NCBI RefSeq assembly: GCF_019565455.1
Contig: NZ_CP067377.1
Span: forward strand, 3,292,001-3,356,000
Length of the DNA stretch: 64,000 bases
Direction: 5' to 3'
Origin: Flavobacterium oreochromis
Lineage (GTDB): Bacteria; Bacteroidota; Bacteroidia; Flavobacteriales; Flavobacteriaceae
Numbering within the stretch: the stretch's first letter is position 1; each line of letters starts with the position of its first letter. This document shows positions 2,453-54,500 of this stretch, in pieces. The position numbers and the translations under genes were made by a program. The notes below the pieces were generated by a model. It made no database searches and was not told the DNA's origin. It saw nothing but the letters and a program-made list of their open reading frames with translations.

Positions 2453-2584
2453 GGAGACTGTCCAAAAAGTCCGCAATCTTGTCATTGCGACCAAAGGGAT
2501 AAATCACATAGTACTGATTATAAGACTCCTCCTTCCCTTAGAGTAACAAACTGTGTATTGATTTTTTACTTTTAGGACAACCTC
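2453..2584. mobile_element. MITE-like element B, copy 1 (about 132 bp)
   Basis: A non-coding element bounded by imperfect terminal inverted repeats: GACTGTCCAAAAAGT near 2456 and, inverted, GGTTGTCCTAAAAGT at the right end. A collinear copy of exactly the same length lies at 42415-42544, where it interrupts the cobalamin riboswitch; over 2461-2584 versus 42421-42544 the two agree at roughly five of six positions without gaps. Shared internal blocks include CCGCAATCTTGTCATT and ACAAACTGTGT. Both copies have AATAAA or AA immediately outside, so a short AA-rich target is possible. Confidence 0.75.
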
Positions 2585-30324: not shown

Positions 30325-32155
30325 TATTTATTTTCACTTCTTTTCCAGTTCTAAAAATATGTTTCCATTCTGGACTATATAAATACGAACGATTTTTTCT
30401 TGCTCCAATGGCCGCTCCTACAATTACTAAAGTGGTTAATGTTAGTTTGTTATCACGAATAATTTGAGCTAATTCTGTGAGTTTGCCCACAAATACTCTT
30501 TCGTCCTGCCAAGTAACTCGGTATAAAACCGCTACAGGTGTATCTTCGGGATAATGTTCTAATAATTGTTCTTGAACTGATTTAGCAATTGTAGCACTCA
30601 AAAAGATGCACATCGTTGCTCGATGTTTTGCCATTTCGTTTAATTTTTCATTTTCAGGAAGTGGTGTTTTTCCTTCTCCTCTGGTAAGGATAATACTTTG
30701 TACTACTTCTGGAATGGTAAATTCTGATTTTAAATAGGCTGCTGCTGCTTGAAAAGAGGAAATTCCAGGAACAATAGAATATTCCATTCCTTTTTCATCA
30801 AAAATTGTCATCTGTTCTTGAATTGCTCCATATATAGAAGGATCTCCTGATTGTAAACGAACAATTAAGTTTCCTTTTTCATAATGCTCACACATTATTT
30901 CAATTTGTTCTTCCAAAGTCATACTTGCCGAATTACGTACAATTGCACTTGGTTTAGCATAATGTGTTAATTCTATAGGAATAAGACTCCCTGCATATAA
31001 AATTAAATCGGCATCTTCTAATAATTCTTTTCCTTTTACAGAAATTAAATCGGCTGCTCCTGGACCTGCCCCTACAATGATAATTTCAGCTTTGCGCTGT
31101 GCTTTGGCATCTAATGATAAAGCAATGGTGTGTTTTTTACCTGATGATAAATGTATTTTTTTCTTTTCTAAAATTACTTCATTGTTTTGTGCTAATAGCA
31201 TCGCTGCTGCTTCGGAAACACTATAAACTCCTAATTTACTCATTACTACTTCCGATGGATTTATGGCATTTTTTGAGTTCAATTCTTCTGCCGTAAAAGT
31301 GATAAATGGAATTTTTAAAGTAGTAGCCAAAGTTATAAAAGCCTCTTCGTCGTGTTTTACATCCAAAGAACCTAACGATTTTATAGCTTCAACTGCTATA
31401 TGTTGTTCTTGCAATTGATTTCTAAATGAATTTTCTAACAAATCGTATTCAATACCACGTGAACAACCCATTCCCATAGTTATTACGGGCGCATAATAGT
31501 ATAAGGCTGGTATGGGTGCTTCATATACCTTATAGGTTACTGCAATTAATAATTCATATTTAGAAAAATCAATATCGTTATATCGATAATGTATAGTTAC
31601 AAAATCAGGTTTATTCCTTTCTAAGAATGTACATCCTTTATCTTTTATATCTAATAATAAGGCGGTAGGTTTATTATTCACAAATAAGGAAATGATTTTA
31701 TTCATTTCGATACTACTTTTACTTTTCCAATTATAAGTTGCAGGTAAAGTGTCTAATGCCCAAATATTTTGTGTATCACTTGAGGTGGTAATAACTGCTT
31801 GTGCCCCTATAACTTTAGAAAGATTTTGGGTTAAAGCATTTGCACCTCCTAAATGTCCTGATAATACAGCTTGAACAAAAGTACCTGCATCATCAATATT
31901 TATTACAGCGGGGTCTTTTGTTTTATTTTCAATATAAGGTGCAATACTTCTTACACAAATTCCTAATGCACCAATAAAAACAAAAGAATCAAATTTTGAA
32001 AAATTGTTTTCTAAAAAAGAATGGATAGATTCTATTTGAGTAACCTTGCTATGAGATCTAGTAGAAACTACTATTGATTTTTGAAATTCTTTTTGAATGA
32101 TTAATCCAAGTTCTACACCTTTATCTGTACTTGCTATGATGGCTGTTTTATTCAT
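30317..32155 (-). CDS. cbiG-cobM: Fused cobalt-precorrin-5A hydrolase and precorrin-4 C11-methyltransferase
   Basis: A 612-residue bifunctional enzyme. Residues 1 to about 345 are CbiG, which opens the lactone and releases the C20 fragment: IGALGICVRSIAPYIENKTK, INIDDAGTFVQAVLSGHLGG and MGMGCSRG. From about 358 the SAM-dependent methyltransferase CobM/CbiF starts at IIIVGAGPGAADLISVKG, continuing LYAGSLIP, RLQSGDPSIYGAIQEQ and VPGISSFQAAAAYL. Both halves look complete and the gene has no frameshift. It overlaps the start of cbiE/T by 8 bases; the repeat array starts at its stop codon. Confidence 0.95.
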   Translation of the reverse strand: MNKTAIIASTDKGVELGLIIQKEFQKSIVVSTRSHSKVTQIESIHSFLENNFSKFDSFVFIGALGICVRSIAPYIENKTKDPAVINIDDAGTFVQAVLSGHLGGANALTQNLSKVIGAQAVITTSSDTQNIWALDTLPATYNWKSKSSIEMNKIISLFVNNKPTALLLDIKDKGCTFLERNKPDFVTIHYRYNDIDFSKYELLIAVTYKVYEAPIPALYYYAPVITMGMGCSRGIEYDLLENSFRNQLQEQHIAVEAIKSLGSLDVKHDEEAFITLATTLKIPFITFTAEELNSKNAINPSEVVMSKLGVYSVSEAAAMLLAQNNEVILEKKKIHLSSGKKHTIALSLDAKAQRKAEIIIVGAGPGAADLISVKGKELLEDADLILYAGSLIPIELTHYAKPSAIVRNSASMTLEEQIEIMCEHYEKGNLIVRLQSGDPSIYGAIQEQMTIFDEKGMEYSIVPGISSFQAAAAYLKSEFTIPEVVQSIILTRGEGKTPLPENEKLNEMAKHRATMCIFLSATIAKSVQEQLLEHYPEDTPVAVLYRVTWQDERVFVGKLTELAQIIRDNKLTLTTLVIVGAAIGARKNRSYLYSPEWKHIFRTGKEVKINNN

Positions 32156-33403
32156 TTTTTCTTTTTTCTGCTGTTAATATGGTAATTGGATTATGTTTAT
32201 CTAAGGTAATTTCTATAGATTCAAGTAACTGATAGTTTATTTTGTTACTACACTTAATAAAAGCTTCCTTACTTTCATTTTTTACTGTATTCATTACGAT
32301 TCTTCCGCCTGCTACTAGATATTGATCGATTAACAAGATAAGTTCTTCTAATCGGTTGCCGTGTCCACCAATAAAAACGGTATCAGGAGCGGTAACTGTG
32401 TTTAAATCTATTTCAAAAAAATCACCTATTAATTTATTGATTCCTGGTGTGGAATGTTTTTTTGTGTTTTCATCAAAAATGGAGCTGCACTCTTCTCGTA
32501 TTTCAAAAGCAAAAATATCTAAATGTGGAAATTGTGTTTTTGCTTCGATAGAAACTGATCCTGTACAAAAGCCTACATCCCAAAAAGTCTTTCGATTAGG
32601 CAAATCTAATTGCGAAAGGCTTATTAATCGTATAGGCATTTTAGTAATCATATTTGGACGATTTTCTAAGCCTATAAAGGCTGCATCTTTGATACCAAAC
32701 TGTTTTTTCTTTTCAGTTTTTTTTAGTAACAACAAACAATTGAGTGCATCAAATGTTTGTAGGGAGGCAGCTTTTAAACTCAAAGAAGATATTTTTTCAT
32801 TTTCACCTTCTAAAGCTTCTCCTACAATCATTGTATAATTATCAAAATTATAGTCAAGCATTCTTTGTGCTATGGCACTAGGTGTTTTTGTGGCATCTGT
32901 TAACACTCCTATCAAATTAGTTTGCTGTAAAAGTGCTATGTCTAATTCTTTCCAAGAACGTCCGTGAACCGAAGTACTTACCATATTTTGGTACGGTATG
33001 GTATTTTTTGACACAATAATTGCAAACTATTAAAATGCGGGTAAATTTGAACTCTAGCCGTAGGGTCATTTTTTTTGATTGTATTTGCAAAACCATAGAA
33101 TAAAGGATCGCCTGAGGCAAAAACAACTATTGGTTGTTCTATTTTTTTATACGTTTCAAAAAGAACTGACATTTCTTTTGCAATTTCAATCCATTGATGG
33201 TTAGTAGGCAAAAACTCTTTTATTAGTTCATAGTGTCTTTTTCCTCCTGAGAAAACCTGATGTTGCTGTACTATTTTTTTTACCTCAGCACTTAAATCCA
33301 TTTGTGGATTATTTGAAATACCAATAACGTAATATTTTACCAATGAAAATGGTAAAGTACAGGCTTCAACGGGTGTTGTATAAGGTAAATTATTGTTATT
33401 CAT
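32148..33403 (-). pseudogene. cobL: Precorrin-6B methyltransferase/decarboxylase CbiE-CbiT, frameshifted
   Basis: A fused CbiE-CbiT (CobL) of about 418 residues that methylates C5 and C15 and decarboxylates the C12 acetate. CbiE half: YYVIGISNNPQMDL, SGGKRHYELIKEFLP, VVFASGDPLFYGFA. CbiT half: FWDVGFCTGSVSIEAK (SAM site) and VFIGGHGNRLEELI. The frame breaks near 33000, after CQKIPYR; restoring one base gives PYRYQNMVSTSVHGRSW, and this break is not in a long homopolymer. The start ATG is at 33403; a TTG at 33424 would overlap bluB by 8 bases. As written, two overlapping ORFs cover the two halves. Confidence 0.88.
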
Positions 33404-33416
33404 AATTTGTACTTCG

Positions 33417-34061
33417 TTAATCAATCGTTCTAACCACGCTGTTTTTTTCTTTTCTCTTTTCCCATTTAAGGGTTTCTAATTCAGGTTGTGTATAAAACTT
33501 ATCAACGTATCCTACACATAAATAAGCTACCAACTTATTTTCGTTAGGTACAGTTAAAATATGTTTCACTTTTTCTTCATTTAAAATACTTACCCATCCC
33601 AGTCCTATATTTAAAGAACGAGCGGTAAGCCACATATTTTGAACGGCACAAACCACACTATATAAACCCATTTCAGGCATACTCGTTTGACCAAGTACTG
33701 GTTTTTCGGCTGGTTTATAGAATACTGCTATATTTATAGGTGCTTCTAAAATTCCTTCTAATTTTAGTTTAATATATTCTTCTTGTTTTTCATCTTTAAA
33801 ATAATCTAAAGCCTTATGATTTTCTTCTTCAAAACTTTGTTTTATTTGTTCTTTAATGCTTGTATTTTTTATAATTACAAACTCCCACGGTTGAGAAAAT
33901 CCTACCGATGGTGCGTGTAATGCGGAAAATAATAATTTATCTAGTAAATCATTTTCAATAGCCTTATTTAAAAATCGAGTACCCCGAACATCTCTTCTGT
34001 TTACAATGATTTCTTCTAAAAGAGCAGCCTCTTGTTTACTAAACAACTTCCCTTTTTCCAT
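33417..34061 (-). CDS. bluB: 5,6-dimethylbenzimidazole synthase
   Basis: A 214-residue nitroreductase-fold flavoenzyme that cleaves FMNH2 with oxygen to make the lower ligand base of B12. BluB signatures: VNRRDVRGTRFLNK with the conserved Asp of RRDVR, ALHAPSVGFSQPWEFVII, and SLNIGLGWVSIL. I start it at ATG 34061 (MEKGKLFSKQEAALL), 23 bases inside cobJ-cobH; the longer open frame to 34100 lacks conserved residues. Since it needs oxygen, its presence shows that B12 is made under oxic conditions. Intact. Confidence 0.93.
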   Translation of the reverse strand: MEKGKLFSKQEAALLEEIIVNRRDVRGTRFLNKAIENDLLDKLLFSALHAPSVGFSQPWEFVIIKNTSIKEQIKQSFEEENHKALDYFKDEKQEEYIKLKLEGILEAPINIAVFYKPAEKPVLGQTSMPEMGLYSVVCAVQNMWLTARSLNIGLGWVSILNEEKVKHILTVPNENKLVAYLCVGYVDKFYTQPELETLKWEKRKEKNSVVRTID

Positions 34062-35427
34062 CCTGATAATTATTTTTTGTATGTACTGTAAAAGCTGCAT
34101 TCACGATACTTGCTGCTACATTACTTCCTCCTTTACGCCCTTTGATGATAACATAAGGAATGGTTAACAAAGCTTGTAACTTTAATTTTGATTCTATTAC
34201 ATTAACAAATCCTACTGGAGCACCTACAACTCCTATAGGGTTACATTTTTGTTCTATTATTTGTTCGCAAATTTCAAATAAGGCTGTAGGAGCATTACCT
34301 ATAACATACAAAGCTTCTGGATGTTTTTGTAAGGCTAATCTAATTCCTGCTTGGCTACGTGTGATATTCTCTTTTTCGGCTAAAGCGGTTGCTTCAGGAT
34401 CATTCAAATAGCATAGCACTTGGTTATTATATTCTTTTGAAAACGCTTTGGTAATACCTGATTGTACCATTGTAACATCGGTTATAATAGTGCCACCGTT
34501 TTTAAGATAAGTATTCCATCTATTTATAGCATCTCCATTAGCTATATAAAGATCCTCATATTCAAAATCGGCAGTGGTATGAATGCAACGCATTACTGCC
34601 CATTTATCATTTTCAGCAAGATCGTTTCGTTGTAAATTTCCTTCTATTTGACGAAAACTTTCCTCCTGAATTTCTTGTCCAGTATGTGGTTTTCGTGCCA
34701 AATATCCTCTAGGTGTCACCAAGAAATTTTTGAACTGATAGGTTTGTGAGTTTCCTATCATTACCAGCGAAAACATATCCACCATTTCGGTTTCAAATTC
34801 ACCCAAAGTGGTGATAGTAATATGTTCGTCAGGGCGTGTTACTTGGCGGATTATCGCTACAGGTGTAGCTGGATTACGATATTCTAAGAAAATTTCTTTT
34901 AATCGATCGAGTTGCCAAAAACGTTTTTTGCTTCTTGGGTTGTATAATGAAGTTACAAAATCACCTTTAGCAGCGGCATAAATTCTATTTTCAATAGTTG
35001 TCCAAGGAGTCATTAAATCAGATAATGAAATACAACAAAAATCGTGTCCTAGTGGCGCTCCTAATTTTCCTGCTGAAGCAATAAAGGCACTAATTCCTGG
35101 AATAGTTTGTAAGTCTATATCCTTATCTGTTTGTGTACTGGCATATTGATAAACTAAAGATGCCATTGCATAAATTCCCGCATCGCCTGAGCTTATTACC
35201 ACTACGTGTTTCCCTTTTTCACAGGCATTGACTGCTAAAACAGCACGTGCTTCTTCCTCGGTTAATTCTTTACCTATACACTCACAGTTTTCTTTTAGCA
35301 AGTGTTCAATAAATTGAAAATAATAATGATAACCTATAACCACATCGGCATCTGCTAAAACACTTTGTGCAAAAGGTAAAATATATTCTTGTCCTCCAGG
35401 GCCTATGCCTACTACGCTTAATTTCAT
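34039..35427 (-). CDS. cobJ-cobH: Fused precorrin-3B C17-methyltransferase and precorrin-8X methylmutase
   Basis: A 462-residue fusion. Residues 1 to about 245 are the SAM methyltransferase CobJ/CbiH: LSVVGIGPGGQEYILPFA, VVISSGDAGIYAMASLVY, LYNPRSKKRFWQL, SLVMIGNSQTY. From about 270 the CobH/CbiC methylmutase follows, with the conserved His in MRCIHTTADFEYEDL, DVTMVQSGI, YVIGNAPTAL and PVGFVNVIESK near the end, and KGRKGGSNVAASIVNA. It overlaps cobI by 4 bases (ATGA) and bluB by 23. No frameshift. The fusion joins steps that are not consecutive in the pathway. Confidence 0.95.
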   Translation of the reverse strand: MKLSVVGIGPGGQEYILPFAQSVLADADVVIGYHYYFQFIEHLLKENCECIGKELTEEEARAVLAVNACEKGKHVVVISSGDAGIYAMASLVYQYASTQTDKDIDLQTIPGISAFIASAGKLGAPLGHDFCCISLSDLMTPWTTIENRIYAAAKGDFVTSLYNPRSKKRFWQLDRLKEIFLEYRNPATPVAIIRQVTRPDEHITITTLGEFETEMVDMFSLVMIGNSQTYQFKNFLVTPRGYLARKPHTGQEIQEESFRQIEGNLQRNDLAENDKWAVMRCIHTTADFEYEDLYIANGDAINRWNTYLKNGGTIITDVTMVQSGITKAFSKEYNNQVLCYLNDPEATALAEKENITRSQAGIRLALQKHPEALYVIGNAPTALFEICEQIIEQKCNPIGVVGAPVGFVNVIESKLKLQALLTIPYVIIKGRKGGSNVAASIVNAAFTVHTKNNYQDGKREVV

Positions 35428-36129
35428 TTTCTTTTTTTATAATTAACAAAGAGAAATAAGGAATCTCTCTATTTTTAATATCTTCTAAATTAGTGGTAAT
35501 GTATTGCTGTGTGGTGCCTAATCGTTCGCAATATAAAACGGTTAAATTATTCGATTCTAAAAAGAACTTAATTTATGAAAGACACTTCTTATCTTAATAA
35601 GAACCACCGTATCATTATCTTGTAATGATTTTTCTAATTCAGCTATATGCTGGATTCTTGGGATAATAACAATCTTTTCATTTAAAATAGCTAAAGGCAT
35701 TTGATGTTGTGCCGCTCCTAAGATAAATGAAGGAACTCCTGCTATAATTTCGACCTCTAACTGGTGTTTTTGTAGATGTTCCAAAAGATAAGCAAAGGTG
35801 CTGTAAAACAAACTATCACCTTCACTTACAAAAGCAATAGTCAACCCCTTATCATAGTCTTGTACGATGGATTGAAAAGTAGCCCAATAAGTAGCTTCAG
35901 CTTGTGAGCGATCATCAGACATTTGAAGAAACATCCCAACTAATTTACGTTCATCTAATTGATGGTATTGTAAAATAGGTAACGAAAAGCTTGTTGTTTT
36001 CCCATTAGTCAATAAAGAACCTGGATAATAAATTTTATCCGCCTTTTCTAGAATTTTTAATCCTTTCAACGTAATCAATTCTGGATCACCAGGCCCTAAC
36101 GAAACGGCATAAATCTTTCCTTTTTTCAT
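35424..36129 (-). pseudogene. cobI: Precorrin-2 C20-methyltransferase, frameshifted
   Basis: A ~235-residue CobI/CbiL that adds the C20 methyl group. Good blocks: YAVSLGPGDPELITLKGLKI, AFVSEGDSLFYSTFAYLL, IAGVPSFILGAAQHQMPLAI. The frame ends early after FHKLSSF because a run of five T near 35570 should be six; restored, it continues LESNNLTVLYCERLGTTQQY, then KNREIPYFSLLII, and stops in the ATGA overlap with cobJ-cobH at 35424. The lost part is the C-terminal ~45 residues of the methyltransferase fold. It follows cbiX by 24 bases. Confidence 0.88.
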
Positions 36130-36153
36130 GAATTATATCTTTATGAACGAGCT

Positions 36154-37090
36154 TTAAATTCCTAAAAGTTTTTTTAATCCTGAAAAACTTGATTTTTTAG
36201 TTGTAATTTTTTCTTCTTCTTCAAACAAAATTCCTTTTACCGCTAGATGATGTCCTATTTGTTCTTTGCCTACTTCTTCTTCAAAACCAATTATTTGTGT
36301 ACGGTATTTACACAACTGACAATTCATATTAGGACTTCCTTGCTCTACCTCAGCAATACGTTCGTCTATCGTTTGTAATAACAATTCGTCACATTCAAAA
36401 GAAGCTGTATAATGATATTCATTAGAAGCGTTTTGAGCAAATGTTTCTACTTGCGAATATATTTTTTTAATAAAACTCCTGTAAATAAAAACACTGGTAA
36501 AACCACTACTCGTTTAAAAGGGAGTTTATCTACTAAAACTAAACTATCATTTAATAAAGGTTGTGTAACTCCTATGTATGTAGTTGTAGCAAAGCCAAAA
36601 CCCATACCTTCCCAAAGCATTCGGGTCATTTTTGCAATATCTGAATTAGCATCAGGATCGGCAGTACCACGACCTACTACTAACAAGCAGGTTTCTTTTC
36701 TATCAATACTGGGCAAGGTTACCTCTATGTTTTCTATTAATTTTTTTGAAAGTTGCAATATAGAAGGAGTGATTCCAAAATGTTTCCCTAATGTAATTTT
36801 TAAATCAGGGTACTGACTTTGTATTGCATTCATTTCGTATGGTATGTCGTTTTTTGCATGACTTCCAGCAAAAAGAATTGCAGGAATAGCAATAATTTCA
36901 CGTACTCCATTTGTATACAAACGTTCTACAGCGGCAGCATATACTGGATGAGAAAATTCTAGAAACCCGTAATCTACTTCATAGTTAGGATAACGTAATT
37001 TTAAAAGACGTACTAATTCTTTAAATCCAGTTACACCTTCGGGATCACGACTGCCGTGTCCGCAAATTAGAATTCCTTTTTAGCATTCAT
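36154..37090 (-). pseudogene. cbiX: Sirohydrochlorin cobaltochelatase CbiX (long form), two frameshifts
   Basis: A ~310-residue two-domain class II chelatase that inserts cobalt into sirohydrochlorin. Repaired, it starts MNAKKGILICGHGSRDPEG at 37090, with SHAKNDIPYEMN supplying another active-site His, and the second domain has VGRGTADPDANSD. The C-terminal extension has MNCQLCKYR, the M-x-C-x-x-C motif known from long CbiX proteins that bind an iron-sulfur cluster. One A is missing from a run of five near 37078 and one from a run of seven near 36458 (VLLKKIYSQVETFAQ when restored). It overlaps the end of cobA by 11 bases. Confidence 0.87.
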
Positions 37091-37867
37091 TTTCTTCTAT
37101 AATTTTAATCGGATTACTATCTATAGGAAAAGCATATTTTCCTACTATAAACACTACAGGCATAGGAACTGTTTCTAATTTTAATTTTTGTTCCATTTCA
37201 TCTAAAGTTCCGCTAAAAATTGTTTCTTCTTCTTGAGAAACTTTAGAAACTGCCGAAATGTAAAGTATTTCATGAGGTGTAATTTTCTTAAAAGTTGCAA
37301 TCACTTCTTTTAAATTTTTATACCCCATGTACATAATGAGTGTAGTTCCTGTTTTGAGCATATTCGCTAATGCTTCTAATTGCTCAAAATCGTAAGTAGC
37401 TGTATGCCCTGTACAAAATAATACAGAGTTTGTTTTGTTACGTTCTGTAAGTGGAATATGTTGCGAGTTAGCCGCTGCTATTCCTGAGGTAATTCCAGGT
37501 ACTACTTCAAAAGAAATTGCATTTTGGGTTAAAAAACGAATTTCTTCCGCTACTCTACCATAAATAAAGGAATCACCTGACTTAAGACGTACAATTTTTT
37601 TCCTTCTTTTGCATACTTAATAAAAAGTTCATGTATGGTATCTTGTCGTTCCATAGCGTCTTGCACATCACCATATTTTCTACCTACATATATTTTTTGA
37701 GCATGAGTTGAAGCTAAATCTAAAATTTCTGTTGAGATTAAATTATCATATAATATCACTTCTGCTTCTTGAATGCGTTTTACAGCTTTTACAGTAAGCA
37801 ATTCAGCATCGCCAGGTCCTGCACCCACAATACTTATGGTCTTTTCTTTTTTATTTTGTAAATCCAT
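37080..37867 (-). pseudogene. cobA: Uroporphyrinogen-III C-methyltransferase, frameshifted
   Basis: A ~262-residue SUMT that makes precorrin-2 from uroporphyrinogen III, the branch point into B12 and siroheme. SAM-site motif: ISIVGAGPGDAELLTVKAVK. The frame is lost after KEGKK at a run of seven A near 37600; eight A restore IVRLKSGDSFIYGRVAEEIR, then FEVVPGITSGIAAANSQHIP, and the C-terminal half (TLIMYMGYKNLKEVI, VPMPVVFIVGKYA) follows in the new frame to 37080. No siroheme-synthase dehydrogenase/ferrochelatase domain is fused. It starts 3 bases after the SDR gene. Confidence 0.9.
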
Positions 37868-37870
37868 ATA

Positions 37871-38701
37871 CTACTCTTCATTTAATAGATCCAACGGATT
37901 AGGATATTTAAACTGATAGTTTAATCGTGTTTTTAACTTTTCTGAATTAATAATTTTATATGTCAAATTTTGAGTGGTAGCAAATGTAGGCTTTTCTAAC
38001 CCAATTTTTTCAGCTGCTAGTTCGTAATATTCTCTTCTTTTAGGATGTATATCTGTACTTGCATTAAATAATTCGCCCCAAATTTCTTTTTCTATAATGT
38101 TTTCAATAATAGCGATACAATCATCTTGATGAATTACATTTATAGGTGCCTCACCATTTTCTACCTCTTTCTTACCTGCTAAAAAACGTCCTGGCATACG
38201 ATCATAGCCAATTAATCCTGAAAAACGGACTATCGTAGTTTCAAATTGAGTTTGTTCGAGTAACATTTTTTCTACTAAAAGCAATGCTTTTCCGCTCTCT
38301 TTTTCAGGTAATTGTAACTCTGTTTCAGTCACAACTCCATTAGTATCAGGATATACAGAAGTAGAGCTTATAAAAAGCACTTTTTTAATATTACTTTTCA
38401 AAATTTCAGATAATAATTGCTCTATCTGACCTGTGTGAAAAGCAATAACATCTGCTCTTCGCTTAGGCGGGAAATTAATAATTAAAATATCAGAATCTAG
38501 AAAATTTACTATTTCTGGACCTTCAATAGCGGTATTAGTTATTGAAATAAGATAAGGTTGAACTCCTTTTTCTTTTAGTAAAGTTATTTTATCATAACTG
38601 GTTGTAGAACCATTTACGTAAAAACCTTTTTTCACTAAATTTTCGGCTAAAGGTAAACCTAACCAACCGCAACCTAATATACTTATTTTTTGTCTTTTCA
38701 T
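37871..38701 (-). CDS. SDR-family NAD(P)-dependent oxidoreductase/epimerase of unknown role
   Basis: A 276-residue extended SDR (YeeZ-like). Rossmann motif ISILGCGWLGLPLAENLVKK at residues 6-25, ISSTSVYPDTNGVVTE with a Ser/Tyr pair near residue 112, and a C-terminal substrate-binding half. It is sandwiched between NiCoT (1-base overlap) and cobA (3 bases) within the B12 operon. No known cobalamin enzyme has this fold, so its place in the operon suggests an auxiliary reduction or simply co-expression. Intact. Confidence 0.8.
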   Translation of the reverse strand: MKRQKISILGCGWLGLPLAENLVKKGFYVNGSTTSYDKITLLKEKGVQPYLISITNTAIEGPEIVNFLDSDILIINFPPKRRADVIAFHTGQIEQLLSEILKSNIKKVLFISSTSVYPDTNGVVTETELQLPEKESGKALLLVEKMLLEQTQFETTIVRFSGLIGYDRMPGRFLAGKKEVENGEAPINVIHQDDCIAIIENIIEKEIWGELFNASTDIHPKRREYYELAAEKIGLEKPTFATTQNLTYKIINSEKLKTRLNYQFKYPNPLDLLNEE

Positions 38702-39504
38702 TAGTTTTCTTTTATTCTTTTTTGAGAGCGAAGATACAAATCAAAATATAGTAAAAGAATGATTCCAAGAAATCCTAAACCTACTATATTGTTTTGCAAA
38801 TCATTTAATTCTAAACTAGGATTAAAAACAGTGGTTAATTTATAAATAGGAATAATAAAACACATTACTGTAATAAGTATATTTAATTTAAAACGATGTT
38901 TTTGAATATTTGTACGATCAAATGTTTTTAATAGTTTACTCAATAAATAGGAATCAATGGTTCCTGTAAACATTAACCCAATAGAAAAAATAAATCCTCC
39001 TATAACTGAGAATAACCAATGATGGGTTCCAGAAACAGCCAAGCCAAAAGCTGCTATTTGGGAAGAGGTATCAAATATAAATCCAAAAACTACTCCTGTT
39101 ATAAAGACTGTAATGGGACTTAAGTTTTTATCTAAAAATTTAGGTATAAGATATTTTTTTAAACTAAGAGAATTGGTTGGTTTAAATTTTAATAATGAAA
39201 TTATATTACTTACTCCCATTACAAATAATAAGAACATAGGTAACCAATTAAGTAAAAAATCAACTGAAGAAGGAACTTCGAAATTATTCTTTAAATAGCT
39301 TAATGCTAAAGCTATTAAAGTAACCATAACACCATGTCCTAAAGTAAATAGCGTTCCAACCCATCTAGACCAAGAATTTTTATTTTCATGTAAGCGATAC
39401 GTATAATTATCAATTACAGTAATATGATCTGGATCTAAGCCGTGTCGTAAACCTAAAATAAATAGGATTAATAAAGCCGATAAATTATTATTAAGTAGTT
39501 CCAT
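38701..39504 (-). CDS. NiCoT-family cobalt/nickel transporter
   Basis: A 267-residue integral membrane permease of the HoxN/NixA/NhlF family. The signature in helix II, RHGLDPDHITVIDNYTY near residue 20, carries the metal-binding HxxxxDH, and TLFTLGHGVMVTLIAL and FGFIFDTSSQIAAFGLA match the other conserved blocks. About eight membrane segments. Genomic context (B12 operon, after the receptor gene) points to cobalt. The window thus has two different cobalt-uptake proteins. Intact. Confidence 0.92.
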   Translation of the reverse strand: MELLNNNLSALLILFILGLRHGLDPDHITVIDNYTYRLHENKNSWSRWVGTLFTLGHGVMVTLIALALSYLKNNFEVPSSVDFLLNWLPMFLLFVMGVSNIISLLKFKPTNSLSLKKYLIPKFLDKNLSPITVFITGVVFGFIFDTSSQIAAFGLAVSGTHHWLFSVIGGFIFSIGLMFTGTIDSYLLSKLLKTFDRTNIQKHRFKLNILITVMCFIIPIYKLTTVFNPSLELNDLQNNIVGLGFLGIILLLYFDLYLRSQKRIKEN

Positions 39505-39522
39505 TGTTTTTATTATCTAAGA

Positions 39523-41810
39523 TTAAAAGAAATAGGAAAAGCTGGCTTTTACAAAAAAAGGAGTCCCTGGTGTATTATGAAAATCCATAACAGGTTCTAC
39601 TTCATTTTTTAATTGTGATTTGTCATAAAACTGTGCTTCATCCCATTTAATATTTAATATATTTTCAGTAGAAAGACTAACTTCATATTTAGGTTTAGTA
39701 TATCTGATCACTAAATCTGCTATGGTATAGGGTTTAGAAAATACAGATCCATCTTCAATAGCAGGGCGTTTACCCATAAAACGATAGCGTAAACTAGCAT
39801 TAATCCCATTTTCTAATTTTAGCGTTAATCCTCCGGTTGAATTCCATCTAGTATTTAAAGGAATAAAATTTTCTTCTTTTGGAGCATCTCTCAAAAAACT
39901 ATAGGCGTAATTTAGATTAGTATCTGCCCATAGAAAATCTGCAAATTGAATTTTTAAAGACGCATCTATTCCGTATTTTCTAGTTCGACCTAAATTTTCA
40001 AAGCTTCCATCATCTGAAACAAATTTAAATTCTGAACCACTGTCTGTCCACCAAGACGTAAAGCTAAAGATAGATTTTTTATACAATTTTATAATAAAAC
40101 CCAAATCAAGACTTTCAGATTGAGGAACAGGATTATCAGCTACAGGATCTTTACTAACGGCTGTATGTACATAATTAGAATGAAATCCTATACCCCATTT
40201 TGTAAATACTGTAAAATTAGTAGTAGGATTAAAATATAATTGTGCTTTTGGATTGAAACGATAAACCTTTTTTCTACCAGAGTTATCATTGTTCATTTTA
40301 TCATTTAAATAAAAATCAAAAAGTTCATTTCTAAAACCTAATTTAAGAGACCATTTTGGTGCAAACTGCCAATCTTCATCTAAATAAAAACTATAATTAG
40401 TAATTGCTAAATGATCGTTTGCTGCTTTACTTAAAAATCCTCTTCTTAAAACATAATCTCTACCTAATCCTAAAATGTCAGTTCGGGTAACTAATCCTGC
40501 TTCAGAGGATAATTTTGTTGAACTTATATTATCTAATCTACTGTAAGTACTTTTAAAACCGAATAAATCTCTTTTTTCCCATTGTAATATTTCATCTCCA
40601 TTAATAGGATCATTCATAAAAAGGTAAAATTTGAAAATAAGTCAAAAATATTTTTAGAGTAATATAATTGATTTTTCCAAGACTGATTTTCACTGAATTT
40701 AGTATCTAAAATTATATTTGCATTAATTCTTGACGCTATTCCTCCTTCAGAATCATCTAAAGAACCATATCTAGATAGCAAACCCTTTTCTATTGCTCGT
40801 AAAGGTAATTGACCAGAAGCATTCCAACTACTAGAAAAATACGATCCTGACAACAATAATGAAGTTTTTTCTGTTAATTGGGCATTATATCTTCCAAAAA
40901 AATTAAAACGTTTAAATTTTAATTTACTTTCAAAAAAAACCATCTGTATAATTGTATTCTGATGCAAAATAAGCATTGTCATTCCATTTTGAAACTAAAT
41001 GTTTTTGATCTAAAACTTGTATCATAGCTAAAGCTCTTTGGGTATTAAACAAGCCTGATTCAAGCTTGATCATATTTTTTTCTAAACGATATTTAGAATT
41101 AAATTGGGCTGCTCCTGCTACGGAAAAATCACCAAGACTTGCTTCATAAGGTCCTTTAAAAAAATTAGCTGAACCTATAGTTTCAGGAATCATAAAGTGC
41201 ATATCTGCATATCCTTGACCATGTGCATGAGAAGGCATATTTGCAGGTATTCCATCCATTTGAATAGAAAAATCAGTTCCGTGATCATTATCTATTCCTC
41301 TAACAAAAATTTGTTCTGCTTTTCCTCCTCCAGCATGTTGTGCAATAAATAGCCCTGGAACGGCTCTTAGTAAATCTTGAGCTGATTTTATAGGTTGTAA
41401 TTGTAAGCTTATTTGATCTATTTTATTTTCTTGTTTTTTAATAGATGAAGCTGAAATAACTAATTCCGCCAAGTTCATCACATTATGCAACAAGGTAATA
41501 TTAAGCGTTTTTTGTTCGTTTTTTTAAAATTAAGGTTTAAATTAAGCGAATTATATCCCATGTGAGAAATAATAATTGTCTTAGCTCCTTCTGAAATAGA
41601 TTCTATTTTATAAGCTCCATTTTCTTGTGATATGGTACTTTGACCTGATTCTTTTATTCTTATAGTGGCTCCTTCTATTTTATTTTGATTCGTTGCATCT
41701 ATAACATAACCACTAATAGTACTTTGTGATTGTAAAGTAGGAGATAAAAATAGTAGTAACGAAAAACAAATTATATTAAATAATCTTGTTAGTATATGAG
41801 TTTTATTTTT
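39523..41810 (-). pseudogene. btuB: TonB-dependent cobalamin/corrinoid receptor (BtuB-like), multiple frameshifts
   Basis: An outer-membrane TonB-dependent receptor of about 760 residues. It begins with a signal peptide (LFNIICFSLLLFLSPTLQSQ), a carboxypeptidase-regulatory-like domain (STISGYVIDATNQNKIEGAT), a plug (DLLRAVPGLFIAQHAGGGKA, IFVRGIDNDHGTDFSIQMDG) and barrel strands ending NTPGTPFFVKASFSYFF with a terminal Phe. Frame breaks lie near 41505, 40950 (eight T, one too many) and 40620. Its start codon also seems lost: ATAAAACTCAT at about 41803 looks like ATGAAAACTCAT with the G deleted. Position after the riboswitch and before NiCoT makes a corrinoid or cobalt-chelate substrate likely. 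With four defects, this is the most damaged gene of the operon. Confidence 0.85.
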
Positions 41811-42143
41811 TTTAGGTATAAGTTGTTCAATCGTATTACTTGAAGAAAAAAGCAAGTGATCATTTAGTTTCGTATTTTTTAAAATATGAGTAGTAACTAA
41901 ATCATTTGAAGTTTGAACATTCATTTCCTTATACCAAGTATTTTCAGGTTGAATATTTATGATAGGGCCTTTTTTACAAAAACCTTGACACTTGGTTCTA
42001 ATCGTATGAATTTCTTCATTAAGTGCTTGTTCTGTTAGACTTTTTCGGAGTGTTTGAATATTTTCTTCTGCTCCATTATCAGTACAACAAGTACCATTAC
42101 ATAAATAAATGATTTTTTTAATCTTTGATAGATCCTTTGACAT
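41804..42143 (-). CDS. Thioredoxin-like [2Fe-2S] ferredoxin domain protein
   Basis: About 110 residues from ATG 42143 (MSKDLSKIKKIIYLCNGTCC). Cysteines in IYLCNGTCC and IRTKCQGFCKKGP give the four-Cys pattern of thioredoxin-like 2Fe-2S ferredoxins, a type seen at the head of cobalamin operons, where it may support corrin-ring or cobalt reduction. It runs in frame straight into the TonB receptor signal peptide, so as written the ferredoxin and receptor are one 238-residue ORF; I infer this comes from loss of one base at the receptor start. It is the first gene after the riboswitch. An upstream in-frame start at 42194 exists but adds only non-conserved residues. Confidence 0.7.
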
Positions 42144-42264
42144 GTTAATTTTTTTTTTCGTTAATAATCCCGTTAACTGATTATTAGCGACCATAGAAAA
42201 AGGACGTGTGAAATAAGGGAAGCATTACATTCACTCGTTAGCCTTTACTCCGAAAGCCGCGAAT

Positions 42265-42570
42265 CAATGCAAAGGCAGGTCTTCTGACTTGTTCTAATTA
42301 TAACGCCTTCCCGTTTTCTTTTTAAATGAAAATAGTGGCCTTTTGTTATAATCTTTTTTTAGAACTTACAGCAGCGGGTACTGTCCCAGATTTACACTGG
42401 ATTCCCTTTTAATAAAGCTGTCCTAAAAGTCCGCAATCTTGTCATTTCGACCAAAGGGAGAAATGACATAATATTGATTATGAGACTCCTCCTAACGTCG
42501 GAGTGACAAACTGTGTGTTGATTTTTGACTTTTTGGACAGCCTCAACCATTTGCGGGTACGAAAATACAA
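42265..42570 (-). promoter_or_regulatory. Cobalamin riboswitch, interrupted by a MITE
   Basis: Read on the minus strand, the aptamer core is AAAAGGGAATCCAGTG, AAATCTGGGACAGTACCCGC, TGCTGTAAG, GCCACTATTTTC (B12-box region), CGGGAAGGCG and finally AGTCAGAAGACCTGCC at 42268-42283, all in consensus order. The 5' part, TACCCGCAAATGGTT, lies at 42545-42559, beyond a 130-base element. Without it the junction would read CAAATGGTTAAAAGGGAATC, a normal riboswitch sequence. The expression platform leads to the ferredoxin-receptor-cob operon, so this is expected to repress it when adenosylcobalamin is plentiful. Confidence 0.88.
42415..42544. mobile_element. MITE-like element B, copy 2, inside the riboswitch
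   Basis: Collinear with 2453-2584. Ends GCTGTCCTAAAAGTC and, inverted from the right, GGCTGTCCAAAAAGTC pair almost perfectly. AA directly repeats on both sides of the insertion (TTTTAA left, AACCATT right), compatible with a two-base duplication or a TTAA target. It has no ORF. It separates P2-side and P3-side sequences of the cobalamin aptamer. Confidence 0.8.
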
Positions 42571-42617
42571 AAAAGCAGAGCGTTTTTTATAAAAAACTTA
42601 TTTCTACTGAAGTATTA

Positions 42618-43573
42618 TCAAAAACAACCTAAAACTATACCGTTTATTATCAATATGACAACAATAGCAAGAAAAGTAACGGAATGATTTATACAACTTA
42701 CTCTTTTTATTTCAGAATGTGCAATAGTTCTAGGATTTGTTCCAATAAATGGTTTATCAACTATTTTTCCGTGATAGGTATTAGGTCCTCCAAAACGGCA
42801 ATTCATAATTCCTGCTAAGGCGGCTTCCGGATAACCTGAATTAGGACTGGCGTGTTGCTTTCCAAATTTCAATACAAAAAAAAATAAATCAAGTTTTCCA
42901 CTAATTACAATCATCAAAAAAGCAGTGAATCGAGCTGGAATATAATTTGCAACATCATCTAATCGAGCAGCAAATTTTCCAAAATAGAAATATTTATCAC
43001 TCTTGTAGCCTATCATTGAGTCTAAGGTGTTTATCATTTTATAAACCATCATAAAAGGCAATCCGCCTAGAGCGTAATAAAAGAGAGGGGCAATAACACC
43101 ATCGCTCAAGTTTTCTGATAAGGTTTCAAAAACGGCAATTCGTATTTGATTTTCAGTTAGTGATGTAGTATCTCTTCCTACTATCCAAGCTAATCGTTTT
43201 CTTCCTGCCTCTAATCCTTTTTCTTGTAGGGTAGTAAACACTTCCTTTCCTTCTTGAAGAAGACTTTTATTGGCTAGACCATAAAAACAAAAACGGTGGT
43301 AAAAAGTATATAATACAGCGGATGAAGTGCAAACAACAAATTAGAAATAAAATAAAAAAAAGTAAAAACGGCAGTGCATAACAACAGGGTTAGTGCCACT
43401 CCTTTTGCTATTCTAAAACTCCCTTTATTTAAAATACCTTCGCCAAAATAAATAAGATTCCCAAAAAGCCGAATAGGATGTGGCAACTTTCTTGGATCTC
43501 CTAAAAGTAGGTCGAATAAATACCCCAACAGCAACGGAATTGAAAATAAAATTACAGCATTGTCCATTGGCAA
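42618..43573 (-). pseudogene. cbiB: Adenosylcobinamide-phosphate synthase CbiB, frameshifted
   Basis: A ~318-residue membrane enzyme that attaches the aminopropanol phosphate arm to adenosylcobyric acid. The N-terminal part has LLLGYLFDLLLGDPRKLPHP and two membrane segments. The frame is lost after FTTVFVF in a run of five T near 43281; six T give VFYGLANKSLLQEGKEVFTT, joining the 207-residue remainder with ASPNSGYPEAALAGIMNCRF and FGGPNTYHGKIVDKP. It overlaps the aminotransferase-like gene by 22 bases. The next feature downstream is the riboswitch region, so this ends its transcript. Confidence 0.9.
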
Positions 43574-44574
43574 ATTGTATCAATTAATAATTGGTTTTCC
43601 AAAGGTTTTTGAGTCGCTACTCGAAAATAGTGTGCAGACAGTCCTCTAAAGTTACTGGCATCACGAATGAGTAATTGATGATTATGCAAGAGGTATTCTT
43701 TTAAATTAGAAGCCGTTTTTAGTTGGGTTTTACACAAGAAAAAATTAGTATTTGTAGGATAGACTTCTATATGTTCAATTTGTTGTAAAGCATTGTAAAA
43801 ATGAGCTGTATCGGTCATTAATTTTTCTATGGGTAATAACAACTTTGATGCGTTTTTTACAATATATTTCCCTGCTTCGATGGCAAATGTATTAACAGAC
43901 CAAGGCATTTTATTTTTTTCTATGGCTTGTATATTTTGGCTTTGACTAATAATATAACCCAATCGTAAACCTGGAATAGCATACGTTTTTGTTAACGATT
44001 TTACTATTACTAAGTTTGAAAAATTGGTAATTTCATCGATCATAGAAATTGGATGGGTCGTAAAATCAACATAAGCTTCATCAATAACAAAGAGGGTTTC
44101 TGGATTATTTTGTAACAACGAAGAAAGAACGTTTTTAGAAAGCAACAAGCCCGTAGGATTATTTGGGTTTCCTAAAAACAGAGCATCAGTAGCAAACCGA
44201 CTCGTTTCGGTGATTTCTGACCAATTGACAAAATTTAATGACAGGTTATGAATTTGGCAAGCATCATTGTATTCTGCAAACGACGGAATTATAATAGTAG
44301 CCGATTTCTTTTGTAAAAAATGAGCCAGTAAATAAAAGGCTTCGGTAGCTCCATTAGTCACTATAATTTGTTGCGGTTCCAACCGATGCCATTTCGCTAA
44401 TTCATTTTGTAGCGATTCGGCATTAGCTTCTGGATAACGAGCAATATTGTCCCATTGTAACATAAGGTGTTCTTGCAAGCCTTTAGGTGGTCCATCATAA
44501 AAAACATTGGAACTAAAATTTACTTTTATTTTTCCGTTAAATAAATACCCATCATCACCGTGTCCTAAAATCAT
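43552..44574 (-). CDS. cobD: L-threonine-O-3-phosphate decarboxylase
   Basis: A 340-residue PLP enzyme of the histidinol-phosphate aminotransferase fold (fold type I), named CobD in Salmonella and CobC in the aerobic nomenclature. It forms (R)-1-amino-2-propanol phosphate for the nucleotide-loop linker. Visible blocks: HGDDGYLFNGKIKVNFSSNV, IVTNGATEAFYLLAHF, LFLGNPNNPTGLLL, VIDEAYVDF and SLTKTYAIPGLRLGYI with the PLP lysine. It overlaps cobQ by 4 bases and cbiB by 22. The presence of pduX upstream, supplying threonine phosphate, agrees with this role. Intact. Confidence 0.9.
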   Translation of the reverse strand: MILGHGDDGYLFNGKIKVNFSSNVFYDGPPKGLQEHLMLQWDNIARYPEANAESLQNELAKWHRLEPQQIIVTNGATEAFYLLAHFLQKKSATIIIPSFAEYNDACQIHNLSLNFVNWSEITETSRFATDALFLGNPNNPTGLLLSKNVLSSLLQNNPETLFVIDEAYVDFTTHPISMIDEITNFSNLVIVKSLTKTYAIPGLRLGYIISQSQNIQAIEKNKMPWSVNTFAIEAGKYIVKNASKLLLPIEKLMTDTAHFYNALQQIEHIEVYPTNTNFFLCKTQLKTASNLKEYLLHNHQLLIRDASNFRGLSAHYFRVATQKPLENQLLIDTICQWTML

Positions 44575-46051
44575 ATTTCTGTCTGTTTAAGAACGTTATA
44601 AATATATTCGATATCTATATGCTCTCTTAAATGCTGAGCTAATAAATCGTATTGCTCTTCTTTAAAAGTTTTATAATCAAAAGAAGTTGCTACTACTTCT
44701 TTTTTTGTTTGCGAAAGTAAATCTTGAATTACTATTTCGTTATCCAAAATACCGTGAATATACGTACCCCAACAAGTATCTGATAGATAATAGCCTTCCT
44801 TGTTATCATTATCAAAACAGTTAAGATCAAATCCCTCATTTTCCATAGTCGAAATCCCCATATGTATTTCATACCCTTCACATATTTCGGGGTATTTTTT
44901 AAATTGAAATTGTACCTGTCGGGTGGTTTTTTCTGAGCTAAGCACTGTTTTTATAGGTAGTATGCCTAATCCTGACATACTTTCGACTGTTCCTTCTATA
45001 TGATTAGGATCTTCCACAATTTGTCCCATCATTTGGTAACCGCCACAAATTCCTATAACTGTTTTGTTATTTTTATACGCTTTAATAATGGCTTTGGCAA
45101 CGCCATTATTTTTAATATCAATCAAATCAGAAATGGTGTTTTTACTCCCTGGAAGAATTACAATATCGGCTTTTTCTATTTCCGAAGGATCTTTTGTATA
45201 AAATAGATTTACATTTTCTTGACGTTCCAGCACATTAAAATCGGTGTAATTAGATAATCTATTCAGTAAAATAACGGCAATATTTATTTTATCATCAACT
45301 GTAGCGAAACGTTTATGTTGGAGTCCTACTGAATCTTCTTCTTCTATATAAATATCCCCTCGATAAGGTACAACGCCCACCACAGGAATACCACAAAGCT
45401 CCTCTATTATTTTTTTCCTTCTTCAAAAAGTCGTGCATCTCCACGAAATTTATTAATGATAATTCCTTTTATTAAAACTTTTTCTTCGGGTGTTAATAAT
45501 GCTATACTTCCATAAACACTAGCAAATACACCCCCTCTATCAATATCTGCAATTAAAAAAGTCATTGCATTAGCATATTTTGCCATACGCATATTGGTAA
45601 TATCTCTATGTTTTAGATTTAGTTCGGATATGCTTCCTGCTCCTTCTAACACAATAGGGTTGTATTTTTCACTCAATCGATCATAAGCCGCTTGAGCTTC
45701 TTTGAGCAATTCCATTTTATCATTCCCCATAAAATAATCAAACGCAGATTGATTCCCTAAAGGCTTACCATTTAAAACCACCTGTGAACTTTTATCGTTT
45801 GTAGGTTTTAATAAAACAGGATTCATATCAGTACTACAAGCTATGCCACAAGCCTCTGCTTGAACCGCCTGCGCACGACCTATCTCAAGTCCGTCTGGAG
45901 TAGCAAAACTATTAAGCGACATATTTTGCGACTTAAAAGGGGCTGGTGTATAACCGTCTTGTTTAAAAATACGGCAAAATCCAGTATTAATGATACTTTT
46001 ACCTACATCAGAGGCTGTACCAACAAACATTATAGGACGTAACTTTTGCAT
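44571..46051 (-). pseudogene. cobQ: Cobyric acid synthase, frameshifted
   Basis: A ~493-residue glutamine-dependent amidase that amidates four carboxylates of adenosylcobyrinic acid diamide. Synthetase half: MFVGTASDVGKSIINTGFCR (Walker A), PFKSQNMSLNS, LIADIDRGGVFASVYG. Amidotransferase half: NKTVIGICGGYQMMGQIV with the catalytic Cys and EGYEIHMGIS. The frame breaks after FEEGKK at a run of seven A near 45410; eight restore KIIEELCGIPVVGVVPYRGD and a continuous gene. It lies 5 bases after pduX. Confidence 0.92.
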
Positions 46052-46056
46052 AAATT

Positions 46057-46901
46057 TTATTCAATAATTAGCTTTGTGTGCCAATGTTTAGCTACTAAAT
46101 CGCTAACTTCTTTTTCGATCGATTCTAAACGATAGGGTTCTATGAGTAACCCCATATATGTTCCACTATGCGCTACAAATAAACCACAATTATTTGCTAA
46201 GGCAAAATGGTATAATACATCAAATTTATTTTTAGGCAAAATAGCTTGATTAATAACTGCACTTCGTGTAACACATTCAAAAAATGTTGTATAATACCCT
46301 CTTTCCATACTTATTTTTAAGTTATAATAAAGCTTTTTAAACTCTTCTACTTGATTTTCAGAATATTTTCTATCTCGTGATATTTTAACAGTATCAACAT
46401 CTTTATCAGGATCTGAATCAAAATACAACATAACATAAGGAATAACATGAAGGTTTTCTATAATTTCACCTGATTTTTGATTAAACAATAAAGAATTTTG
46501 ATCTAGGCAAGGATCAGTAGGATCTATTTGAGATGCTATTTTATAAAGAAAAGAATTTGTGTAATGTGTTTTATACAATTGATTCAAAGCTAACAAAAGA
46601 CTTAATATATCCGTTGAACTAGAAGATAATCCTTTACCTTCTTCAAAGTTTCGGTCTTGATAAAAGTATATCGGATTAATAAGAGTCCTTTTTTTTCTTT
46701 TATTAATGTATGAAATAATTCTAATGCTTGTCTAGATTTAAAATCTAAGATTGTTTCATTATCTATAGGATTTATACTTACAATAGTATTGGTTTTAAAT
46801 ATTTTAGAAGACTTATTGCTTACTAAAAATGGTTGATTCATATCAAAGACCCCTTGTATGAGCTCCCCCACTTTAGCGTAAGTAGTAATCTTAATTGTCA
46901 T
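46057..46901 (-). pseudogene. pduX: PduX-like L-threonine kinase, frameshifted
   Basis: A ~280-residue GHMP-family kinase that phosphorylates L-threonine for the aminopropanol linker. It opens MTIKITTYAKVGELIQGVFD. After KEKKG a run of eight A near 46691 should be nine; restored, it reads TLINPIYFYQDRNFEEGKGL followed by SSSSTDILSLLLALNQ, the ATP-binding GHMP motif (KGLSSSSTD), and QIDPTDPCLDQNSLLFNQKS follows, typical of PduX. The second piece from 46596 lacks the ATP loop on its own. First gene of its minus-strand block, divergent from cbiA. Confidence 0.85.
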
Positions 46902-46923
46902 TTTCTGTTTCTTTATAAGGTTA

Positions 46924-46958
46924 CAAAGATAAAAATTGGGAATTGATTTTTATCTTTG
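46924..46958. promoter_or_regulatory. Palindromic divergent promoter of pduX and cbiA
   Basis: A perfect 13-bp inverted repeat: CAAAGATAAAAAT at 46924-46936 and ATTTTTATCTTTG at 46946-46958, 9 bases apart. Each arm ends, in outward direction, in TATCTTTG, a match to the flavobacterial -7 box TAnnTTTG, pointing to cbiA on the plus strand (ATG 46964) and pduX on the minus strand (ATG 46901). It may be a symmetric double promoter and/or an operator. The plus-strand box lies only 5 bases before the cbiA ATG, so that transcript would have almost no leader. Confidence 0.55.
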
Positions 46959-46963
46959 AAATT

Positions 46964-48292
46964 ATGAAACCACAATTTCTTATAGCAGCACCCTCTAGTA
47001 ATTCTGGAAAAACGACCATTACTTTAGGTTTATTACGATTATTAAAAAATCAAGGATATAAAGTCCAACCGTTCAAATGTGGACCTGATTATATTGATAC
47101 AAAACACCACACAAAAGCAGCGTGTCAAATAAGTATTAATTTAGATACTTATATGATGGGTGAAAAGCATGTTAAATCATTATATAATGAATATAATAAA
47201 GATGCTGATGTTTCTATCATTGAAGGAGTAATGGGACTTTTTGATGGTGCTAATCGTATGCAAGGAAGTAGTGCTGAAATAGCTATTTTACTGAATATTC
47301 CCGTTATTTTAGTAGTTAATGCTAAATCTATAGCCTATAGCATAGCTCCGTTATTATTTGGACTAAAGCATTTTAATCCAAATATAACAATTGCTGGAGT
47401 CATCTTTAATTTTGTAAATACAGAAAGTCATTATTCATTTTTAAAAGATGCTTGTGATGATGTAGGTATTGAAGCTTTGGGATATATTCCTTCTAATTCA
47501 GAAATAGCAATCCCTTCTCGCCATCTAGGATTGTTTATATCCCCAGAAAATGATTATGAATCAATAATAGAAAATGCAGCTAGGCACTTAGCAAAATTTA
47601 TTGATATAAATCGTATCTTAAGTATTTGTAATACAAATATTTCTAATGTTCCTATTGAAAAAAAATTAATAAACTTAAAAACAACAAAATCATCTTTTTC
47701 AAAAAATTATACTATAGCAGTAGCAAATGATGATGCTTTCAATTTTACTTATTTTGAAAATATAAAAGCTTTAAAAAACATTGGAAAAGTTATCTATTTT
47801 AGCCCTCTAAATGATAAAAAAATGCCTAATGCTGATATCCTCTATTTAGCTGGGGGTTATCCTGAATTATATTTAGAAAACTTAACTGTGAATACTTCTA
47901 TGCGCCAATCTATTTTAAATTTTTGTTCTAATGGAGGAAGAGTAATAGCAGAATGTGGTGGTATGATGTACTTAGGTAATCAAATTATTAATAATGAAGG
48001 AGTTGAATATTCAATGGTAGGTTTTTTACCTATAAAAACATCAATGGAAAAAGCTAAACTTTCTTTAGGATATAGGGAGGTACAACTTGATAATAAAATT
48101 ATTAAAGGACATGAATTTCACTATTCTAAAGTTATTGAAGAAAATAACATCTTAAGTATAGGAAAGGTTTTTAATGCTAAAGGAACAGAAGTAACTACTC
48201 CTATTTATAAATTAAAGAATGTTATAGCATCTTATATTCATTTTTACTGGGGCAATTCTAATATTATAACTAATACTTTTTTTGAGTTATAA
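46964..48292 (+). CDS. cbiA: Cobyrinic acid a,c-diamide synthase
   Basis: A 442-residue CbiA/CobB that amidates the a and c side chains using glutamine and ATP. N-terminal Walker A APSSNSGKTT near residue 8, PFKCGPDYIDTKHH and EGVMGLFDG; C-terminal amidotransferase with YLAGGYPELYLENL, VIAECGGMMYLGN (catalytic Cys) and GHEFHYSKV (His). I start at ATG 46964 (MKPQFLIAAPSS); the TTG-started extension to 46943 covers the promoter palindrome. It is the only plus-strand cob gene in the eastern half, divergent from pduX. Intact. Confidence 0.95.
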   Translation: MKPQFLIAAPSSNSGKTTITLGLLRLLKNQGYKVQPFKCGPDYIDTKHHTKAACQISINLDTYMMGEKHVKSLYNEYNKDADVSIIEGVMGLFDGANRMQGSSAEIAILLNIPVILVVNAKSIAYSIAPLLFGLKHFNPNITIAGVIFNFVNTESHYSFLKDACDDVGIEALGYIPSNSEIAIPSRHLGLFISPENDYESIIENAARHLAKFIDINRILSICNTNISNVPIEKKLINLKTTKSSFSKNYTIAVANDDAFNFTYFENIKALKNIGKVIYFSPLNDKKMPNADILYLAGGYPELYLENLTVNTSMRQSILNFCSNGGRVIAECGGMMYLGNQIINNEGVEYSMVGFLPIKTSMEKAKLSLGYREVQLDNKIIKGHEFHYSKVIEENNILSIGKVFNAKGTEVTTPIYKLKNVIASYIHFYWGNSNIITNTFFEL

Positions 48293-48388
48293 CTGACTAT
48301 ATGATTAAAGTAAAAATTTAATATGATTTATTTTAATATTTCAAGAATTAGGAGTTTATCTTTTTAGAGAAATATTAAAATAAAAAAA

Positions 48389-48421: not shown

Positions 48422-48496
<75 letters not shown>

Positions 48497-48536: not shown

Positions 48537-48611
<75 letters not shown>

Positions 48612-54465: not shown

Positions 54466-54471
54466 AAAAAA

Positions 54472-54493: not shown

Positions 54494-54500
54494 AGTATAA

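Follow-up and report, generated by a model that had tools for sequence, protein, structure and literature searches.

What becomes of a metabolite-sensing RNA when a repeat scattered through the genome lies inside it? The question is raised by a cobalamin riboswitch on the minus strand of a 64,000-nucleotide stretch of DNA (the window, here always meaning that whole stretch), in which the closing strand of the aptamer is parted from its core by a 131-nt palindrome. The answer favored here, to which we give a probability of roughly 0.65 on the basis of alignments and predicted folds, is a structure-preserving swap, in which a genome-wide palindromic repeat replaced the P2 helix and the switch probably still works. 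The genome carrying the window (3.54 Mb, single contig) belongs to the group of the fish bacterium Flavobacterium columnare; a CbiB fragment is 85% identical to that of F. covae, 83% to F. columnare, and 78% to F. undicola, the nearest named relatives.

Read 5' to 3' on the minus strand, the locus comprises a putative promoter −7 box, the P1 5' strand, the repeat, the core, the P1 3' strand, a platform hairpin, and the TonB receptor/cob operon. Helix labels P1 to P6 follow the order of the Rfam model and presumably correspond to those of the literature. The features are as follows:

42618..43241, minus strand: part of cbiB, the upstream gene, with a frame break on its 5' side
42560..42567, minus strand: putative promoter −7 box TATTTTCG, immediately 5' of P1, one mismatch to the flavobacterial TAnnTTTG
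42546..42554, minus strand: P1 5' strand GCAAATGGT, orthologous to the P1 strand of relatives
42414..42544, minus strand: palindromic repeat of 131 nt in the P2 position, defined by genome copies, boundaries, predicted fold, and comparison with F. covae
42450..42455, minus strand: decoy P1 strand UUUGGU within the repeat, chosen by the genus-specific covariance model and disfavored by folding
42277..42412, minus strand: aptamer core, P3 to P6 region, from the Rfam RF00174 match
42269..42276, minus strand: P1 3' strand GCCTTTGC, from sequence and predicted pairing
42241..42260, minus strand: post-aptamer hairpin, from sequence, with letters identical in F. columnare
41478..42194, minus strand: first downstream ORF, a 2Fe-2S ferredoxin-like domain followed by the start of a TonB-dependent receptor
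39523..41493, minus strand: remainder of the TonB-dependent receptor, three further ORFs
2458..2584, minus strand: second repeat copy in the window, intergenic, 87% identity

The −7 consensus TAnnTTTG is given in PMC9723704, and at the corresponding place F. covae, F. columnare, and F. undicola carry TACTTTCG. Because the putative box lies 5' of P1, the repeat would be within the transcript. The hairpin at 42241-42260 is a possible kissing-loop partner (L5-L13-like) of the loop at 42375-42380, by analogy with PMC9600662. In F. undicola, the ferredoxin-like/TonB receptor fusion is a single open frame of 873 aa (L113, 5030-7651). Elsewhere in the window, two tRNA genes of identical sequence lie 115 bases apart (48422-48495 and 48537-48610).

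Comparison with relatives indicates what the repeat displaced. Homology with F. covae runs up to 42413 and resumes at 42545; between these points the window has 131 nt and F. covae 21 nt, which constitute its P2 hairpin. The repeat is absent from the riboswitch site in F. columnare, F. covae, and F. undicola, providing the empty sites in related strains that the original prediction, which read the locus as a riboswitch split by an inserted MITE (miniature inverted-repeat element), had proposed to look for. Its description of the split itself was accurate: the palindromic repeat 42544-42414 does lie between the P1 5' strand (42554-42546) and the core (from 42412). Only one base, 42414, had to be added to its limits of 42415-42544. 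The accompanying claim that removal of the element would give a normal aptamer junction fails, since the repeat occupies the site of the 21-nt P2 and its excision would leave the aptamer without P2. An extra hairpin between P2 and P3 had also been proposed; a hairpin able to leave the core intact is indeed predicted, but it takes the P2 position, after P1 and before P3. The alignments establish that relatives carry a short P2 at this site and that the stretch lost to the repeat coincides almost exactly with this hairpin.

The nature of P2 was examined in 16 relatives, consisting of the three named loci and 13 of the 24 loci with borders (4 of 28 were dropped because the motif was missing). P2 lies there between GGU and UUAAAAGGG, its 8 pairs are mostly kept, each being broken in 0-2 of the 16, and double changes in 5 of the 8 pairs support a real helix. 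For the window, an 11-bp P2 is predicted in the same register, composed of the host pair U42545-A42413 and the outer 10 bp of the repeat, whose ten pairs have predicted probabilities of 0.956-1.0; the RF00174 arrangement of P2 between P1 and P3 is, by prediction, supplied by the repeat's own ends. Three of the ten repeat-end pairs are G-U or A-U, at the place where TTT stands instead of the usual repeat end CTC. Two simpler histories were considered and rejected. Plain insertion beside an intact P2 is ruled out because no separate P2 remains, while an insertion within the P2 loop that spared the host stem is ruled out for the riboswitch copy because the stem matches the usual repeat ends GAGGCTGTCC, the outermost U-A pair being the only host-like one. 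To look for the same insertion in nearer kin, 398 genomes of the genus and 120 relatives of G377, two overlapping sets, were screened; none came closer than G377 itself, which is 85% identical across the 716 bases compared.

The element itself is a genuine dispersed repeat with a second copy in the window, as first proposed. The genome contains at least 51 matching pieces, merged by eye into at least 40 places (40 of the 82 candidates scored), and a 17-base repeat-end motif allowing up to 2 mismatches has 99 matches, compared with 2 for the reversed control. Matching pieces number at least 43 in F. columnare (whose entries G421 and G377 give identical place lists and are apparently one genome), at least 96 in F. 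covae, at least 21 in G079, and at least 1 in F. undicola. Thirty copies in the genome were compared with mechanically called ORFs of at least 90 aa: convergent gene ends flank 14 of them, a single gene end adjoins 15, one falls within an ORF, and no copy separates divergent gene starts. Of the 29 F. covae copies that reach 110 nt, 27 adjoin at least one gene end. Arrays spaced by about 150-160 bases are visible by eye in the F. covae genome G422, near 375-377, 2029-2030, 2152-2153, 3065-3068, and 3125-3127 kb.

MITEs are short, non-coding, multicopy elements with terminal inverted repeats, which produce a target-site duplication and share their ends with an autonomous transposon. The repeat has the terminal inverted repeats, the small size, and the copy number, but inspection by eye of the sequence beside 30 copies shows no target-site duplication, and the riboswitch copy substitutes for 21 nt. 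Inspection by eye of the 99 end-motif sites revealed no otherwise unpaired, inward-facing pair of repeat ends within 3 kb, and no full transposon bounded by repeat ends is evident among them. What survives of the proposed MITE insertion is a dispersed hairpin repeat that relatives lack at this site; the insertion gives way to replacement of P2.

Whether the aptamer still closes on its upstream P1 strand is less straightforward. The best Rfam RF00174 match spans 42456-42257 with 85.3 bits (gathering cut-off 31.5), against 108.5-111.9 bits for the three named relatives, and its 5' end falls within the repeat. A genus-specific covariance model trained on 16 relatives places its best match at 42462-42263 (117.7 bits) and uses UUUGGU (42455-42450) as P1. 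The same model scores nine relatives' loci at 89.8-196.2 bits; the four among them from the columnare group and its nearest kin, all in the training set, reach 152.2-165.1 bits, so the window ranks below its nearest kin yet inside the range of the rest. Both the starting points of these matches, which lie inside the repeat, and the lower score relative to the named relatives count against the swap. Taken literally, they describe an aptamer lying wholly 3' of the repeat's middle, with UUUGGU as P1 and the upstream strand irrelevant. This is the outcome that the original prediction had said would defeat its insertion reading, and to the letter it was obtained.

Folding disfavors that parse. The region 42560-42257 has a predicted energy of −88.3 kcal/mol when folded freely; forcing the upstream P1 gives −86.0 and forcing the decoy P1 gives −61.4, which makes the internal P1 about 25 kcal/mol costlier. 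Just 3 pairs of that internal P1 form, and relatives show the upstream strand to be the ancestral P1. An aptamer complete on the 3' side was therefore rejected on folding energy despite the preference of both covariance models, and we consider it highly improbable. We attribute the models' choice to the penalty that they put on a long P2. The swap is read with the upstream P1, in which 42554-42546 can pair with 42276-42269 through 8 bp and one bulged base. The P1 closing helix and conserved core of RF00174 are present, and P1 is weak in the free fold, with a probability of about 0.15 in the free ensemble, which also counts against the swap; the free fold of the F. covae leader likewise lacks the textbook structure.

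The remaining parts of the switch have changed little. By alignment, the core, the P1 strands, the promoter box, and the platform are largely conserved. The core (42412-42274, 139 nt) is 92.0% identical to that of F. columnare (127/138) and 92.8% to that of F. covae (128/138), and the platform matches each at 117 of 124 positions, while the flanking blocks aligned with F. covae are 82.1% (12.1 kb, core included) and 79.4% (5.7 kb) identical. Identity over the initial 204 nt of the downstream gene is 89.7-90.2%, hardly below the aptamer, and this weighs against the swap. When 33 core pairs were compared with F. covae, from strings entered by hand and with three pairs near one helix end one column off register, 7 differed; one is a double change from U-A to C-G, and another, also counting against the swap, is a lost pair (A-C for G-U).

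Such conservation bears on the reading that the B12 operon is decaying under relaxed selection, so that the repeat swap would be tolerated debris and the switch impaired or irrelevant. Frame breaks or stops affect 7 of the 18 mapped F. covae ORFs (at least 120 aa) in the cob block, compared with 4 of 35 in the window's other syntenic blocks, and this proportion suggests that selection may be relaxed. Judged against F. undicola, the six genes near the riboswitch include 4 split ones in the window, 4 in F. covae, and none in F. columnare; the broken operon genes are a further point against a working switch. However, all five window-specific frame-changing indels that were located (1 in cobQ, 1 in cbiB, and 3 in the receptor) are single bases in or adjoining homopolymer runs, and genome completeness is 95.67%, when 25 of 36 same-genus genomes reach 99-100%, which makes sequencing error a live alternative. 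Mapping of the window-specific indels did not place the break that affects the gene upstream of cobQ. Since the aptamer and platform remain 92-94% identical to those of relatives, decay appears somewhat unlikely, though it carries appreciable weight. The cobalamin synthesis cluster extends over 30300-48300 of the window, and its breaks may reflect either real decay or sequencing errors.

The repeat might instead have altered the control of the operon, if transcription stalls or stops at its long duplex or RNase III cleaves that duplex, leaving expression attenuated or uncoupled from B12. The original prediction had also raised a release of the downstream operon from repression; such a release may have occurred, in an operon that itself looks partly broken unless its breaks are sequencing errors. 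The predicted fold of the repeat alone, at −49.7 kcal/mol, and the many copies at gene 3' ends, terminator-like in appearance, are consistent with this idea. The riboswitch copy, however, is followed by AUUAAAAGGG, with no U run, and a scan of 42150-42700, limited to loops of 3-8 and blind to a long hairpin, yielded no terminator-like site. Altered control is judged decidedly unlikely.

How far aptamers of the genus tolerate enlarged hairpins offers another view of the swap. Among 48 aptamer matches in 36 same-genus genomes, 41 were taken, leaving out seven of 62-185 bases, and 40 were measured after L056, missing the motif, was dropped. The P2 spacing has a median of 29 and a maximum of 41 nt, compared with 136 in the window; that none of the 40 has a similarly enlarged P2 counts against the swap, although the measure begins near the model's match and a P2 misplaced as in the window could escape it. 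Growth of other hairpins counts in its favor, the P4 hairpin exceeding the median by more than 20 nt in 9 of 40 and the P6-region hairpin in 6 of 40. The latter is less surprising, since the P6 accessory region is described as highly variable in PMC9600662. Palindrome-like inserts of 47-81 nt occur in P4 of L061, L062, L065, L066, L067, L071, and L073, and in the P6 region of L063, L064, L069, L072, and L073. The P4 insert of G007 has 24 matches in its own genome (itself included, mostly partial) and 18 in G002, which marks it as another dispersed palindromic repeat there; G029 and G019 contain 7 matches apiece, while G003, the carrier of a similar insert, and the comparison genomes G010 and G012 contain 1 apiece. 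For the P6-region insert of G005, its own genome gives 3 matches, itself included, too few to mark it as dispersed.

A more general idea is that the repeat family spreads by whole-hairpin exchange, replacing an existing short hairpin such as a terminator or riboswitch stem and keeping the host structure. At all three presence/absence sites with clean borders, a short hairpin lies on the repeat-free side. In the 2.4 Mb of F. covae sequence compared, 16 of the 30 copies have both flanks, and two are clean sites. One is the riboswitch; at the other, L027, a short terminator-like hairpin stands instead of the repeat in both F. covae and F. columnare. In the opposite direction, both flanks of 6 among 87 F. 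covae places are present in the compared sequence of the window's genome, with one clean site, a short terminator-like hairpin at window 54470-54500 where F. covae carries the repeat. Two of the three sites are gene ends, at which a terminator hairpin would be expected anyway, so the pattern is a lead rather than proof. The odds are lowered by L014, where F. covae has 3 nt and no hairpin and the window's genome has more than 100 nt of other sequence beside the repeat. At six other sites (L002, L003, L008, L009, and L029 by eye, and L028), F. covae carries either the repeat or a palindrome related to it; it has only a 17-nt piece of the repeat at L006 and L011, and no repeat, with borders that are not clean, at L013, L015, L016, L021, and L025. 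The four places examined for F. columnare copies against F. covae carry the repeat in both, whole or cut down, and add no presence/absence site to those above. Spread by hairpin exchange is, for now, doubtful and quite unlikely.

The course of events under the preferred swap can be outlined as follows. Transcription would begin upstream of P1, and the repeat, folding as it is transcribed, would form a single long hairpin whose terminal stem is predicted in the P2 register. Its long arm would be directed outward, like other variable P2 tips, and the core would still bind cobalamin and control the operon. The locus would then be an example from nature in which a dispersed repeat provides one helix of a metabolite-sensing RNA, within a genus that shows which helices of the cobalamin aptamer nature can exchange or enlarge. 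Comparable cases may be overlooked, since the 5' end of an aptamer of this kind can be misplaced by covariance models. Should the hairpin-for-hairpin pattern be true, it would suggest an unrecognized, harmless route by which palindromic repeats spread.

Several known systems resemble parts of this arrangement. In F. psychrophilum, a cobalamin riboswitch described in PMC9723704 precedes a TonB-dependent transporter close to cob genes; the window shares with that RF00174 riboswitch its core, its helix order, and the downstream TonB receptor and cob genes, but has a dispersed 131-nt repeat as P2 where the other has a short hairpin. MITEs, reviewed in PMC10969869, are like the repeat in being short, non-coding, and multicopy, with inverted repeats at their ends, and differ in their target-site duplication and autonomous partner, neither of which was found here by eye (30 copies; 99 end sites). 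Among the open-licence PMC papers listed in searches, no description of a repeat inside a cobalamin aptamer was found, nor any precedent for a repeat substituting for a helix of one aptamer. The SPRITE repeats of pneumococcus, terminator-like and suggested to be terminators, are hairpin repeats enriched at gene 3' ends, likened to the present repeat by description alone, and the accessible part of PMC3049150 places none inside an aptamer. That a dispersed repeat can lie inside a riboswitch leader is already known from the same source: in the trp operon of pneumococcus, a BOX element lies between a pair of T-box riboswitches, and the authors infer from RNA-seq that regulation there still works. 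Both are small dispersed repeats transcribed within a riboswitch leader; the BOX element separates two T boxes, whereas the repeat of the window takes the place of a helix inside one aptamer.
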